From a virus, in the IMG/VR virus record IMGVR_UViG_3300003324_000812, positions 1 to 35,447 of that record: DNA of 35,447 nt. The stretch is one strand, 5' to 3'. A program made the translations under genes and the position numbers. Positions 2,490-12,327 of the stretch are shown piece by piece (position 1 is the first letter of the stretch; each line of letters opens with the position of its first letter). The notes beneath the pieces are model-generated. The model was not told the origin of the DNA. It did no database searches and worked only from the letters and a program-made list of their open reading frames with translations.

Positions 2490-3110
2490 TTATTCTTCAT
2501 ATTCTCTTACATATTCCATCAATTTATTTGCTTTGTCTGGATGACGCATTTTACGCAAAGCTCTTGCTTCAATTTGCCTTACCCTCTCTCTAGAAATTCC
2601 ACCTTTATATCCGTCTAATTCTAATCTTTCACCTATTTCCTCTAAAGTATATTCTTTGTCATATTCACCTAATCCCATTCTCATTTGAATTATTTTTTTT
2701 TCTAAATTAGTTAAGCTTTCAAGAACAGTTTCTATTGAATTCTGCATCTGATCTATTGAATAATATTCTTCTAATAATTTTTGATTATCCGATTGATTCA
2801 TAATAAATATTGCTTCTGCTTCTTTAACTTTTAATGTTTTCTTATTTGTTTTAAGATTAGCTTCCATTTGACTAGCACTAAATATTTCTTCTGGAATACA
2901 ATTTAACTCATCACATAATTTTACTATTGACTTTTTTATCCTTCCCCTATCATCAAAAATTGATTCTTTCATATTCAAAAACTTACATAACCTTCCATAC
3001 GAAATACCTGTAGCTTTACAAAATATATGTGGGCTTGAATATCCTTGCTCTTCTATTTTGGTAAGAATTAAATTATTTCTTACTTTCATATCTATCCGAT
3101 ATTCTTCCAT
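2490..3110 (-). CDS. Chimeric XRE-type HTH / sigma-70 region 4 transcription factor
   Basis: 206 aa. Residues 8-78 look like a Cro/CI (XRE) helix-turn-helix domain (ATGISYGRLCKFLN, then KLCDELNCIPEEIF). A linker of about 50 residues follows. Residues 132-192 are sigma-70 region 4: LTNLEKKIIQMRMGL, then TLEEIGERL and the classical 4.2 helix SRERVRQIEARALRKMRHP. Sigma region 2, needed for -10 recognition and melting, is absent, so it cannot be a complete sigma factor. Region 4 normally binds the beta-flap of RNA polymerase and a -35 element; with an XRE domain the protein could redirect host polymerase. A GAGGAT ribosome site precedes ATG 3110. Its place between terminase and late accessory genes suggests middle/late gene control (inference). 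Confidence 0.85.
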   Translation of the reverse strand: MEEYRIDMKVRNNLILTKIEEQGYSSPHIFCKATGISYGRLCKFLNMKESIFDDRGRIKKSIVKLCDELNCIPEEIFSASQMEANLKTNKKTLKVKEAEAIFIMNQSDNQKLLEEYYSIDQMQNSIETVLESLTNLEKKIIQMRMGLGEYDKEYTLEEIGERLELDGYKGGISRERVRQIEARALRKMRHPDKANKLMEYVREYEE

Positions 3111-6894: not shown

Positions 6895-7275
6895 TCAAGC
6901 AGCCTTTGGCATAAATGCTAGATATTCGAGCACTATTCGCTTAGCCTCTTCAAATCCATAAGCCACTTTTGCGTAATACCCTTTTGCATTTAAATAATCC
7001 AGCCAGTCTTGTTGTTGAGAAGATACTTTTCCTCCACTTTCCCTTTTAAGCTCAATATAAAGCCCGTGGTAAGGTCCTGAGGGTAAAGGCACCTCTATAT
7101 CAGGGTAACCCGCAGAGACGCCCATACGCTTAAATTTGACGGCTTCCCAATAATTTCTCTTTCCTCCATTGGCAGAGGCATTAAATCTAATTCCCATCTT
7201 TCCTAGCCAAACAGCTAGTTTGATCTGATCGGTTTCCTCGGTCGGCGCCGGGAGAGATCTTAACTTCCGTGTCAT
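6895..7275 (-). CDS. VRR-NUC domain nuclease
   Basis: 126 aa from ATG 7275, which has GGAG six bases upstream; an ATG at 7287 lacks this. The sequence fits a stand-alone phage VRR-NUC (PD-(D/E)xK fold): PTEETDQIKLAVWL, then the GG-x-R loop ANGGKRN, MGVSAGYPDIEVPLP (catalytic Asp), YIELKRESGGKVSSQQQDWLD (E-x-K), and an AYGFEEAKRIVLEYL helix. These enzymes act on structured or branched DNA. It is last in the replication transcript, before the terminator. About 90 bases of its start overlap another possible gene (7187-7366). Confidence 0.9.
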   Translation of the reverse strand: MTRKLRSLPAPTEETDQIKLAVWLGKMGIRFNASANGGKRNYWEAVKFKRMGVSAGYPDIEVPLPSGPYHGLYIELKRESGGKVSSQQQDWLDYLNAKGYYAKVAYGFEEAKRIVLEYLAFMPKAA

Positions 7276-7366
7276 TTCTCGCTCCATATAGCTTTTTCAA
7301 ACTATCCAAATATTGATTTTTGTACCGCTTGCTCTTTTTTGCCCAAGGTAGGTTATTTTGTTCCAT
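7187..7366 (-). CDS. Small protein overlapping VRR-NUC, 59 aa
   Basis: ATG 7366 has a good ribosome site (AAGGACG). The first 27 residues (MEQNNLPWAKKSKRYKNQY...) look like genuine basic coding sequence. The rest lies out of frame over the start of VRR-NUC and has no visible pattern. Either it is a short real protein with an overlapping tail, or its frame was truncated by a past frameshift. It does not join VRR-NUC in frame. Confidence 0.45.
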   Translation of the reverse strand: MEQNNLPWAKKSKRYKNQYLDSLKKLYGARNDTEVKISPGADRGNRSDQTSCLARKDGN

Positions 7367-7377
7367 GTAGAACGTCC

Positions 7378-7659
7378 TTATTCTATGCAACAACAAAAAG
7401 GTGGCACATAACCACATTTTGCGCAAATATTAATTTGTTGATTTTTTTTACTTGGTATAGGCCTTAACCCAAGTTCTTTGTAAACCAATTCAAAGCAATC
7501 CAATGCTTTATCTAAAGCATCTTTGTTGTTCTTAACCACTTCGCGAATGTATTGATTTAACCAAATAGAATCATCTCCCCCATGATGAGTTGAGATGTGC
7601 TCGATTAACTCTTTTATCCGCCCAGCTTTATCTTTCCATGATACCGTGATTCTCGTCAT
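7378..7659 (-). CDS. Hypothetical protein with C-terminal zinc cluster, 93 aa
   Basis: A helical N-terminal region (KDKAGRIKELIEHISTHHGG, then WLNQYIREVVKNNKDALDKAL) leads to a C-terminal metal-binding cluster ICAKCGYVPPFCCCIE (C77, C80, C88-C90). I do not recognise the family. Being the first gene to the left of the iteron region, it could take part in replication initiation. Its promoter must lie in 7660-7930, since a terminator at 7930-7957 closes the helicase transcript. Confidence 0.7.
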   Translation of the reverse strand: MTRITVSWKDKAGRIKELIEHISTHHGGDDSIWLNQYIREVVKNNKDALDKALDCFELVYKELGLRPIPSKKNQQINICAKCGYVPPFCCCIE

Positions 7660-7676
7660 AGGGCGCGCACCCGTAA

Positions 7677-7992
7677 AAAGGTTAACTTATAATAATATAT
7701 ATATATATATCATATACTTATATATATTTTAAGGGTTAAGAAAAGGTTAAGTTTTAGGTTAAGATTGGTTAAGTTTTTAAAAGGAGGTTAACTTCGACTT
7801 AACCTCATCTTAACCACCTTGGTTAAGTCGTAAGAATGTGTCAACCACGCGGGTTCCAAGGCGTTTTTTTGACAAACTTAACCTCTTTCCAAGAGCGCCA
7901 CCCTACTTAACCATGTAAAAAAATAACGCAAAAAACAACCTTATTTGGTTGTTTTTTGGTCTTAAAAAAAGGGAAAGAGGTTAAGAGTTAAG
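7677..7992. other. Putative iteron-type replication origin
   Basis: Twelve exact GGTTAA hexamers (either strand) lie between 7680 and 7984, most as GGTTAAG: plus-strand copies start at 7680, 7734, 7745, 7757, 7767, 7786, 7821 and 7979; minus-strand copies end at 7804, 7815, 7883 and 7912. The copies at 7734-7773 are spaced 10-12 bases, one helical turn. The arms CGACTTAACC/GGTTAAGTCG (7795-7804, 7821-7830) form an inverted repeat. A run of almost pure A/T (7684-7732) flanks the array and would melt easily. The region sits between replication genes, as expected for an origin. Confidence 0.8.
7930..7957. terminator. Bidirectional terminator hairpin behind the helicase gene
   Basis: An 11-bp perfect stem (7930-7940 with 7947-7957) has a TTATTT loop; its A-rich and T-rich arms give GGTTGTTTTTT on both strands. 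It follows the helicase stop by about 40 bases and would end primase-helicase transcription inside the origin region. Confidence 0.75.
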
Positions 7993-7996
7993 TTTT

Positions 7997-8989
7997 TTAC
8001 TCTTTGAGCATGCCATTTCTTCGAGCAATTTTAGCAATTTTGGACACATATGATTCAGAAATACTTAACTCGCGAGCGATGTTAACTTGCCTCATCCCAT
8101 TATTAAGCATTTCAGATATTTTAATAAGATTGGTACTTTCCATGGATTGGAAAACCCATCCTCGGTCAGTTAAGGAAACTTCAAATGGCAATGCATCTTT
8201 ACCACTAAAGCCTCTCTTCTTTTGATATTCAATTTTAAAAGTTTTATTGGCTGACATTTCAGATTCTAATTGGTCGCCTGTAATGTCTTGAAGGGAAATG
8301 GCTGTATTAACTATGTCCAACATCCTTGAGGTACCACGATAACCTTTTTTATCTTTACCTGCATGGTGGACAACAATAATGGTTAACCCTTTAGATCTTA
8401 AATCAATTAACCAATCTTGGATTAATTTCCATTGTTCAGAATTATTTTCATCGATGGCGGATAAAGTGGATAAATTATCTAATACCAAAACTTCGATTCC
8501 TAATTCTTTAATCTTATAATTGTAAAAAGATTGACCCTCAGGAGAACATATCTTTGGTAGTTTATAAGGAAGAACGGCCTCTGGATTAAAAAGATGGAAA
8601 TTTTCTTTGAAGAATAATTCACCCTGCTGCTTAACGATATCGGTGTATCTAAAATAAACTTCCTTGTATGACATTTCACCATCGATGTATAAAACTTTCC
8701 TTGGTTTTGGGCATTGGTATTTTAGGAATTTACCGCCTCCGGCAATGGCATAGGCAATATTTAAGGTAAATAATGTTTTACCTACGCCTGTTGCTGCATA
8801 AATAAAAGAAACCCCCTGAACCGGCAACCAAGGGGACATAACCATTTCGGTAGGAGCAAGTTTGACAGCCATGATTTTTTCGTGAACCAAAGGATTAATC
8901 TTGGTCCATTCTTCCTCACTTTTAAAATTAACTACGTTATCTTTTTCTACTTCTGGTTTAGCATTAGAAAATTTATCTTTTATGTTCAT
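7997..8989 (-). CDS. RepA-like hexameric replicative helicase with C-terminal HTH
   Basis: 330 aa from ATG 8989 (AAGGATG site; ATGA overlap with the primase stop). It is a RecA-fold helicase of the RSF1010 RepA / AAA_25 type: Walker A AATGVGKT (65-72), an acidic YIDGEM strand (101-106), Walker B VLVLDNLS (167-174), a VVHHAGK sensor (206-212) and YRGTSR (217-222) with a likely arginine finger. RSF1010 RepA is about 280 aa; the extra residues 288-330 (KISEMLNNGMRQVNIARELSISESYVSKIAKIARR) form an HTH. The neighbouring iterons suggest this HTH reads GGTTAAG (inference). It unwinds DNA for the primase encoded just upstream. Confidence 0.88.
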   Translation of the reverse strand: MNIKDKFSNAKPEVEKDNVVNFKSEEEWTKINPLVHEKIMAVKLAPTEMVMSPWLPVQGVSFIYAATGVGKTLFTLNIAYAIAGGGKFLKYQCPKPRKVLYIDGEMSYKEVYFRYTDIVKQQGELFFKENFHLFNPEAVLPYKLPKICSPEGQSFYNYKIKELGIEVLVLDNLSTLSAIDENNSEQWKLIQDWLIDLRSKGLTIIVVHHAGKDKKGYRGTSRMLDIVNTAISLQDITGDQLESEMSANKTFKIEYQKKRGFSGKDALPFEVSLTDRGWVFQSMESTNLIKISEMLNNGMRQVNIARELSISESYVSKIAKIARRNGMLKE

Positions 8990-9882
8990 ATTACATCCTT
9001 GTAAAGTTCGTTGGTGACATATTCCAAACCATAAGTACATAAAACATCATTCCAATCACCTGGTATTGGAGGTACTTTTAAGGTAGCTGAAATTAAAGAA
9101 GCGGTTTTTTTTGCTGAAATTAAACCAATATTATGTGAAAGATGAGCATCATTATCCGCACAAATAACCATTCTTATTTTTGGATAGCTTTTTCTAAATT
9201 GATAAGCAACAGTTTCTATATTTGAAGCCATCAATGCACAAATGACATGCTTGCCAACAGCTTCATAAATAGAGCAGCCAGTGGCCCACCCTTCGCAAAT
9301 CCATAAAATATCTTTTTCTGGATCTATATTTTCTCCTAAAAAAATAAATCCTCCTTTTATTGGAAGATGAGATTTAAATTTTTTAGTATGATAAAAATTA
9401 GATTTAATATATTGGATTGAAATAAGATCGCCGGAAATTGAATGAATCGGTAAAAGAATATAAGACCGTAATTGATATCCATAATAAGGCACAATTCTTT
9501 TTTTAATGATATATGGATGGTCCAAAGAAGCTTCTTTACACTTTGGATGAGAAAATATTGCTTTTGCTTTTAATAAGGCTCTTGTAGTTTTTATAGATTT
9601 TTGTTTAGCTTTCGCTTGATCACAAGATCGTAATGATTCCATCCTGGTTGATCTTTCATTTTGAGATAGACTTCTCCATGGTTTTTCCCACCATGTTACA
9701 TTTACATCAGTACGCCAATTTCCAAAAGAAGCGCCGCCAGGATGGAGATAAAGCCAGATATTTTTTCCACGTTTAGATTGTTCTTTAAGCCTTTGTACAT
9801 CTTTGGATGACCAATCTATTTGACCATCAAAATAGATGCCTGCCATTTCCATTTGATGAATAAGCTCATATTGAAAGCTCAT
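8986..9882 (-). CDS. TOPRIM-domain primase
   Basis: 298 aa. The C-terminal TOPRIM domain shows WICEGWATG (catalytic E197), then a strand ending ICADND (D243, D245) and a DWNDVL tail. The N-terminal half (WLYLHPGGASFGNWRTD, HPYIIKKRIV, ILLPIHSISGDLISIQYI) matches phage and plasmid primases of the Toprim_3 group. It lacks a helicase domain; that function is supplied by the gene coupled through ATGA at 8986-8989. It would lay RNA primers at the origin. A good ribosome site (AAAAGGAATAG) precedes the ATG. Confidence 0.87.
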   Translation of the reverse strand: MSFQYELIHQMEMAGIYFDGQIDWSSKDVQRLKEQSKRGKNIWLYLHPGGASFGNWRTDVNVTWWEKPWRSLSQNERSTRMESLRSCDQAKAKQKSIKTTRALLKAKAIFSHPKCKEASLDHPYIIKKRIVPYYGYQLRSYILLPIHSISGDLISIQYIKSNFYHTKKFKSHLPIKGGFIFLGENIDPEKDILWICEGWATGCSIYEAVGKHVICALMASNIETVAYQFRKSYPKIRMVICADNDAHLSHNIGLISAKKTASLISATLKVPPIPGDWNDVLCTYGLEYVTNELYKDVI

Positions 9883-11448: not shown

Positions 11449-12327
11449 ATGACATTAAGAGCAAAAAAACCAACTATGAAAGAAGTAAGATTTAAGACAT
11501 TGATATATGGAGATAAAGGAACAGGTAAAACTCATTTTTGTTGTTCATTTCCTGAGCCGTATTATATTGATACTGAAGGTTTAGAAGATTATCCTCATTT
11601 TAAAGAGATGATTATAGAAAATAATGGGGATTTAATTTCATTGCCTCATTTAGAAGAAATAATTGAAGAAGTGAAAAGTTTAATTTCATTAAAACATCAT
11701 TATAAAACATTAATTATTGATTCCATATCGTTTCCTTATGGATGGTTAACACAAACAGAAATAGAAAGATTAACTAAAAAATCACCTAATACCGAAGGTA
11801 CTGAATTTGGGGCAAATGTTGCAAAAGCAAAAAGACTGACATATAAATTGGGTATTTTATTATCTCAATTAGACATGAATATTGTGGTTATTGCTCATGA
11901 AAAGATCAGATATGTTGATGGTAAAGAAGTGGGCAAGACATTCGATATAAATGATAAATTAGCTTATACGCTTGGGGCTGTTTTAAGATTACAATTGCAA
12001 GGTAAATCAAGAAAATTGTTTGTAGAAAAATCACGATACAAAGAGCTTGAAACATCTTCAACAATCAATTTTGATGAAGGTTATAAAATAATAGAAAATT
12101 TATTTGGAAAAGATATATTTCATCGAGAATCTAAAAACATAGAAATAGCTACTGATTCTCAAGTAGAAGAATTAAATAAATTAATATCAGAACACAATAT
12201 ACCTGAAAAAATAATTCAAAGTTGGCTAACAAAAGCTGAAGCTAAAGCATTTGAATTTATGGAAAAAGAAAAAATACAGAAATGTATTGATTATGTTAAA
12301 TCTAAAGTAATTAGCGAAGCTGCTTAA
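11449..12327 (+). CDS. AAA_24 (Sak4-like) phage ATPase, recombination/annealing
   Basis: 292 aa. A RecA-core ATPase of the phage nucleotide-binding family: Walker A GDKGTGKT (21-28), an acidic strand YYIDTEGLEDYP (38-49), Walker B KTLIIDS (86-92), a VVIAHEKIR sensor and a C-terminal helical tail (SQVEELNKLISEHNIP) resembling the ATPase-plus-helix layout of Sak4-type proteins. Sak4 proteins assist single-strand annealing with an SSB partner. The gene two downstream encodes a DUF669-like protein with an SSB-type tail, the usual pairing. A GAGGTAATTT ribosome site precedes the ATG. Confidence 0.85.
   Translation: MTLRAKKPTMKEVRFKTLIYGDKGTGKTHFCCSFPEPYYIDTEGLEDYPHFKEMIIENNGDLISLPHLEEIIEEVKSLISLKHHYKTLIIDSISFPYGWLTQTEIERLTKKSPNTEGTEFGANVAKAKRLTYKLGILLSQLDMNIVVIAHEKIRYVDGKEVGKTFDINDKLAYTLGAVLRLQLQGKSRKLFVEKSRYKELETSSTINFDEGYKIIENLFGKDIFHRESKNIEIATDSQVEELNKLISEHNIPEKIIQSWLTKAEAKAFEFMEKEKIQKCIDYVKSKVISEAA

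Follow-up and report, generated by a model that had tools for sequence, protein, structure and literature searches.

A probable iteron-type replication origin directly behind a RepA-fold helicase gene in a P22-like phage

An intergenic array of short repeated words at 7680–7984 of the analysed window (the complete 35,447-nt stretch of viral DNA) very likely represents the replication origin of a P22-like phage, with the product of the adjacent helicase gene as the cognate initiator. This reading is derived from sequence comparison: (i) the array is far above chance, (ii) its place is kept in relatives, and (iii) the array word covaries with the C-terminal HTH of the helicase.

Repeat array and genomic context

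Counting over the whole window yields 12 exact GGTTAA hexamers within 305 bp (7680+, 7734+, 7745+, 7757+, 7767+, 7786+, 7799−, 7810−, 7821+, 7878−, 7907− and 7979+; signs denote strands), where ~0.2 (0.18) would be expected by chance. The Poisson score of this cluster is ~10^−16, and when all hexamers were scanned without bias, GGTTAA and CTTAAC, registers of the same word, formed the two top-scoring clusters of the window. A G follows the hexamer in ten of the 12 copies (GGTTAAG, the consensus) and a C in the other two (GGTTAAC), and sites with at most one change from GGTTAAG amount to 38.7 per kb in the array vs. 2.8 per kb elsewhere in the window. The spacings are 54, 11, 12, 10, 19, 13, 11, 11, 57, 29 and 72, with copies in the core block (7734–7826) being ~10–13 bp, i.e., about one helical turn, apart. 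Six additional copies reside inside the flanking genes (7464−, 7532−, 7557−, 8381+, 8383− and 8407−). Of the window total of 31 copies (expected: 21.2 ± 4.2), 18 fall within 7464–8412. The preliminary description of a cluster of twelve hexamers in about 305 bases is thus borne out, and an equal density of GGTTAA elsewhere in the window is not observed. The partial phasing at 10–12 bases proposed in the same description holds for the core block; the mixed orientation (8 forward, 4 reverse) had gone unmentioned.

Two A/T-only runs (7687–7710 and 7718–7732) part the copy at 7680 from the core block, and the A/T-rich stretch formed by them (Table 1) is a probable unwinding element. GC skew lends no support to an origin, since it tracks gene direction across the window and does not mark the array.

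All genes around the array are encoded on the minus strand. The array is located behind the helicase gene, which flanks it on one side; the other side is occupied by a small ORF and, beyond it, a VRR-NUC gene (Table 1). The helicase supposed earlier to lie next to the repeats is indeed present, displays the fold of RSF1010 RepA in its predicted structure, and is preceded, in the direction of transcription, by the gene for a Toprim_3 primase, its probable partner. Portal and coat genes resemble those of phage P22, agreeing with the podovirus-like genome proposed before. The window also encodes a sigma-70 region-4-like protein (2490–3110) and a Sak4-like annealing protein (11449–12327).

Table 1 Features in and around the putative origin
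Feature	Coordinates	Strand	Remarks
VRR-NUC nuclease	6895–7287	minus	served as syntenic anchor
Small ORF, 93 aa	7378–7659	minus	far side of array; family kept in sister phages
Putative iteron array	7680–7984	none	12 exact GGTTAA; relatives keep place, not word
A/T-rich stretch	7687–7733	none	iterons on either side; same AT run at same place in sister phages G037, G038, G042 and G043
Intrinsic-terminator-like hairpin	7929–7958	minus	within array, in helicase orientation; −16.9 kcal/mol, z −5.5
Helicase, candidate initiator, 330 aa	7997–8989	minus	RepA-like RecA fold (PF13481) plus C-terminal HTH
C-terminal HTH of helicase	8018–8143	minus	residues 283–324; predicted recognition helix SESYVSKIAK
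Toprim_3 primase, DnaG-like	8986–9882	minus	probable partner of helicase

Helicase and its C-terminal domain

The methionine at 8989 is preferred as start of the helicase over the listed ORF start at 9040; relatives align from 8989. The protein matches PF13481, and its sole sequence relative in the PDB is RSF1010 RepA (E = 0.0045). RepA is also the best fold match of the predicted structure (pLDDT 87.6), such that the phage protein is predicted to share the hexameric-helicase fold of RSF1010 RepA. An MCM-like AAA+ domain was not found; fold comparisons point to RSF1010 RepA, RadA and KaiC instead. The C-terminal HTH is predicted to consist of three helices (block pLDDT 93–97) and shows a weak match to the KorB domain.

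Sister phages and the wider helicase family

The helicase as sole query retrieved nothing from viral or genome contigs, as the pattern search reaches close relatives only. The search route led from the portal protein (65 related phages) via a four-sequence helicase alignment to the wider family. Helicase relatives were detected in 4 of the 40 sister-phage records searched, three of them full-length (52–59 % identity) and one a fragment. All four phages carry an array of 10–13 copies together with the same AT run between helicase and small ORF, composed, however, of different words: GGTTAAT (G042), GTGTACA (G038), TGAATCA (G043) and TGAATAA (G037). Array and place are thus kept among these relatives, but the word GGTTAA is not. 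Likewise, the ATPase part of the sister helicases is well conserved in the alignment, and the HTH is not. In G038 (L196:5281–5664), the ORF upstream of the helicase comprises only 127 aa and is not recognisably a Toprim primase, whereas G042 and G043 possess one.

The word GGTTAAG itself was rejected as a diagnostic marker. When viral contigs were scanned for GGTTAAG-N-GGTTAAG-N-GGTTAAG, 120 stretches were retrieved, mostly generic 9–15-bp tandem repeats in unrelated contexts; the AAA_25 profile matched 3 of the 25 densest records, with an adjoining array in none.

Relatives retrieved with the four-sequence alignment comprise 144 loci, i.e., 80 viral (the best 80 of 127) and 64 from bacterial genomes. 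Each locus, spanning 4–11 kb, was represented by its one top-scoring hexamer cluster, irrespective of position. In 50 of the 59 loci scoring ≥10, this cluster falls into the interval from −60 bp to +700 bp relative to the helicase stop codon (10 % expected, p ~2e−40). Score cut-offs were chosen by the authors (7.4 for the covariation set described below, 8–15 for the location test), and the location result stands at each of the four cut-offs tested. The array words of 43 dereplicated members form 17 classes, and mapping them onto the ATPase tree takes at least 20 changes.

A helicase gene followed by an array is not a universal rule, as a clear array within 700 bp is absent from 42 of 96 HTH-bearing relatives (~44 %), in particular from those of the Chlamydiia/Dependentiae group. 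In such relatives, the origin may be located at another place, or the protein may serve a different purpose. Loci L288–L296, L304, L305, L307 and L312 (Chlamydiia, Dependentiae and similar) share a distinct HTH of the LTKSQVETRKKKAK type, with no array behind the gene. Many of the genome relatives L280–L307 originate from bacteria that live inside cells or in association with amoebae (Legionella, Holosporaceae, Parachlamydia, Dependentiae). Repeats are also found at other positions: L229 contains thirty ACGACT words in 350 bp (1689–2042), ~3 kb upstream of a helicase relative with its own downstream array, and plasmid pATHE01 of Caldicellulosiruptor bescii (L125:1739–1909) carries 11 GAGTGA words within the coding sequence of its AAA_25 gene.

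Covariation of HTH and array word

Mantel and partial Mantel tests were applied to 43 dereplicated loci. Identity of the HTH correlates with similarity of the iteron profile (r = 0.49), and with ATPase identity held fixed the partial r remains at 0.375 for the whole HTH and 0.405 for the recognition helix (p = 0.0002; Mantel permutations leave some phylogenetic dependence, and exact p-values are to be read with care). The relation is also evident for pairs whose ATPases are below 45 % identity (r = 0.35, p = 0.0002) and for those at 55–85 % (HTH: r = 0.70; ATPase: r = 0.37), as well as in the window's own clade of 12 loci (HTH: r = 0.63; ATPase: r = 0.13). When all 35-residue segments of the helicase were compared in this clade, the HTH segment correlated best with the word.

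Individual loci illustrate this pattern. The HTHs of the window and L200 are 71 % identical and accompanied by the same word, while L202 and L203 share 77 % identity in the ATPase but only 34 % in the HTH, and have unrelated words. Conversely, an SKxxVSK recognition helix coincides with the word GGAAAC in both Legionella-type and Verrucomicrobia-type helicases, and an SQ-type recognition helix with TGAATCA/TGAATAA in L204/L205, L216 and L281, in each case across distant ATPase lineages. This covariation suggests the helicase HTH to be the reader of the array words.

Loci with and without helicase or HTH

Twenty sister phages anchored at the VRR-NUC gene (L344–L363) serve as natural controls. 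At this site, an array is present in 8 of 8 phages having a helicase of the family profile, as compared to 2 of 12 without (Fisher p = 0.0007). The two exceptions encode a VapE-type helicase and an AAA_25 helicase, the latter having been missed because the locus was cut; post hoc correction results in arrays in 10/10 phages with and 0/10 without helicase. Some sister phages lack both such a helicase and an array, with L361 possessing an HTH_36/DnaD_N protein instead. Whole replication modules are exchanged at this single site of the P22-like phages, including RepA-HTH helicases, AAA_25 helicases with another C-terminus, VapE helicases and array-less non-helicase modules.

Most ATPase relatives devoid of the HTH also lack an array (L221, L250, L255, L276–L279, L309, L338, L339 and L343); exceptions with repeat clusters are L234 and L240. 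Some relatives with other C-terminal domains carry arrays as well.

Alternative functions and provenance of the array

The words could alternatively represent operators, by which the helicase HTH or another regulator controls the small ORF/VRR-NUC operon or the helicase, with replication starting elsewhere. Autoregulation by initiators is common, and the location of the array upstream of the gene beginning at 7659, together with the terminator-like hairpin inside it, would lead one to expect a promoter for the next genes nearby. However, a promoter search of the array region revealed no sigma-70 promoter exceeding chance level, an operator would need far fewer than the ten or more copies grouped around the conserved AT-only stretch, and the array stays behind the helicase where the downstream genes differ, 47 of the 59 array loci being without the small-ORF family. 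An operator function is therefore considered unlikely. Binding of the array by the 93-aa protein or another neighbour in place of the helicase appears very unlikely: the ORF adjoins the array and its family is conserved in the array-bearing sister phages, but the family also occurs in the array-less sister phages L344, L350 and L351, and the word covaries with the helicase HTH. With its absence from the majority of array loci (see above) and its presence without arrays, the small ORF was rejected as general iteron binder.

In some phages, parS repeats are located downstream of repA (PMC7157519), which, together with the weak KorB-domain match of the HTH, could be taken to indicate a partition centromere bound by a ParB/KorB-type protein. 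Yet a scan of ten neighbouring proteins detected neither ParA nor ParB, the HTH forms part of a helicase, and throughout the family arrays are located behind helicase genes, rendering this function extremely improbable. As to provenance, the preliminary description envisaged an origin module captured from an IncQ/RSF1010-type plasmid. The RepA fold of the helicase would be in line with this proposal, but a tblastn search of 72,556 plasmids produced only two weak matches (the viral/genome search yielding the 144 relatives was a different and more sensitive one), and relatives are viral or located in bacterial genomes. Moreover, neither a RepC-type iteron binder nor an RSF1010 RepB'-type primase was found among the ten neighbouring proteins scanned, the primase present being Toprim_3/DnaG-like, and the words measure 6–7 bp as compared to the ~20 bp of IncQ iterons. 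Capture from such a plasmid is thus highly improbable. What stands of the earlier proposal is a real, conserved array beside a RepA-fold helicase in a P22-like phage, for which an iteron origin is the best reading; its RSF1010-like plasmid source does not.

Proposed mechanism and implications

Initiation at the putative origin may be envisaged as follows. The C-terminal HTH would bind the GGTTAAG words, as the covariation suggests, and thereby bring subunits of the helicase together at either flank of the A/T-only stretch. Judging from known initiator-helicase systems, this stretch would then melt, helicase rings would close on the single-stranded DNA with no need of a dedicated loader, and primers would be made by the Toprim primase encoded next to the helicase.

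Beyond the single phage, one may tentatively speculate, with somewhat less than even confidence, that the helicases constitute a widespread RecA-fold helicase-initiator family of phages and prophages with a readable HTH-to-iteron code. The word changes counted among the 43 members would then have arisen as the C-terminal ~45 residues were swapped or drifted, with the result that relatives infecting the same cell would neither fire nor titrate each other's origins. No description of a RepA-fold/HTH family with downstream iterons was found in open-access full texts, which is no proof of novelty.

For most environmental phages the replication origin is not findable from sequence; for many members of this family it could be read as the densest short word behind the helicase gene. 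The word-HTH pairs across dozens of lineages would offer a natural data set for the joint evolution of an initiator's reading domain and its origin, and the pairing may predict for which phages and prophages mutual replication of origins is possible and for which it is not. A RecA-fold helicase would thereby be added to the initiator helicases bearing their own origin-reading domain.

Comparison with known replication systems

In phage lambda, the iterons form part of the O gene, and the helicase loaded is that of the host. The phage studied here shares with lambda O/ori the combination of iterons and A/T-rich stretch in a (here putative) phage origin, but its array is intergenic and located behind a helicase gene of the phage itself. 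The alpha protein of phage P4 is a primase-helicase-origin-binder of another helicase family; helicase and (presumed) origin binding are likewise united in one polypeptide here and directed to short repeated words, but the primase is encoded by a separate gene. In RSF1010, the iterons are longer, a protein of its own (RepC) binds them, and the primase is of another type. Similarity to its RepA-RepC-RepB' system concerns the hexameric-helicase fold of RepA (a fold match only), whereas in the phage the probable binder is fused to the helicase, the words are shorter, and the primase is of the Toprim_3 type.

The cultured Idiomarinaceae phage 1N2-2 (L126:6900–7106) contains 11 GGTACA words directly after the stop codon of its primase-helicase gene. 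It thus resembles the present phage in having an AAA_25 helicase followed directly by repeated words, differs by the fusion of primase and helicase and by a C-terminus that is not the same HTH, and could serve as a practical model for testing.

The helicases Rep of the staphylococcal pathogenicity islands (SaPI) and Cch2 of SCCmec are initiators with a C-terminal DNA-binding domain and short iterons directly downstream of their genes, the C-terminal domain of SaPI Rep recognising the iterons behind rep (PMC7581432). The phage helicase agrees with them in both respects, its predicted DNA-binding domain being positioned at the C-terminus and the putative iterons directly downstream of the gene. 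Differences concern the helicase, which is MCM-like AAA+ in SaPI and SCCmec but of the RecA/RSF1010-RepA fold (PF13481) with a simple HTH in the phage, and the biological setting, i.e., different hosts and a tailed phage here vs. an island there. By analogy, SaPI Rep is thus the closest described counterpart, the similarity being one of presumed working rather than of membership, as the fold differs.
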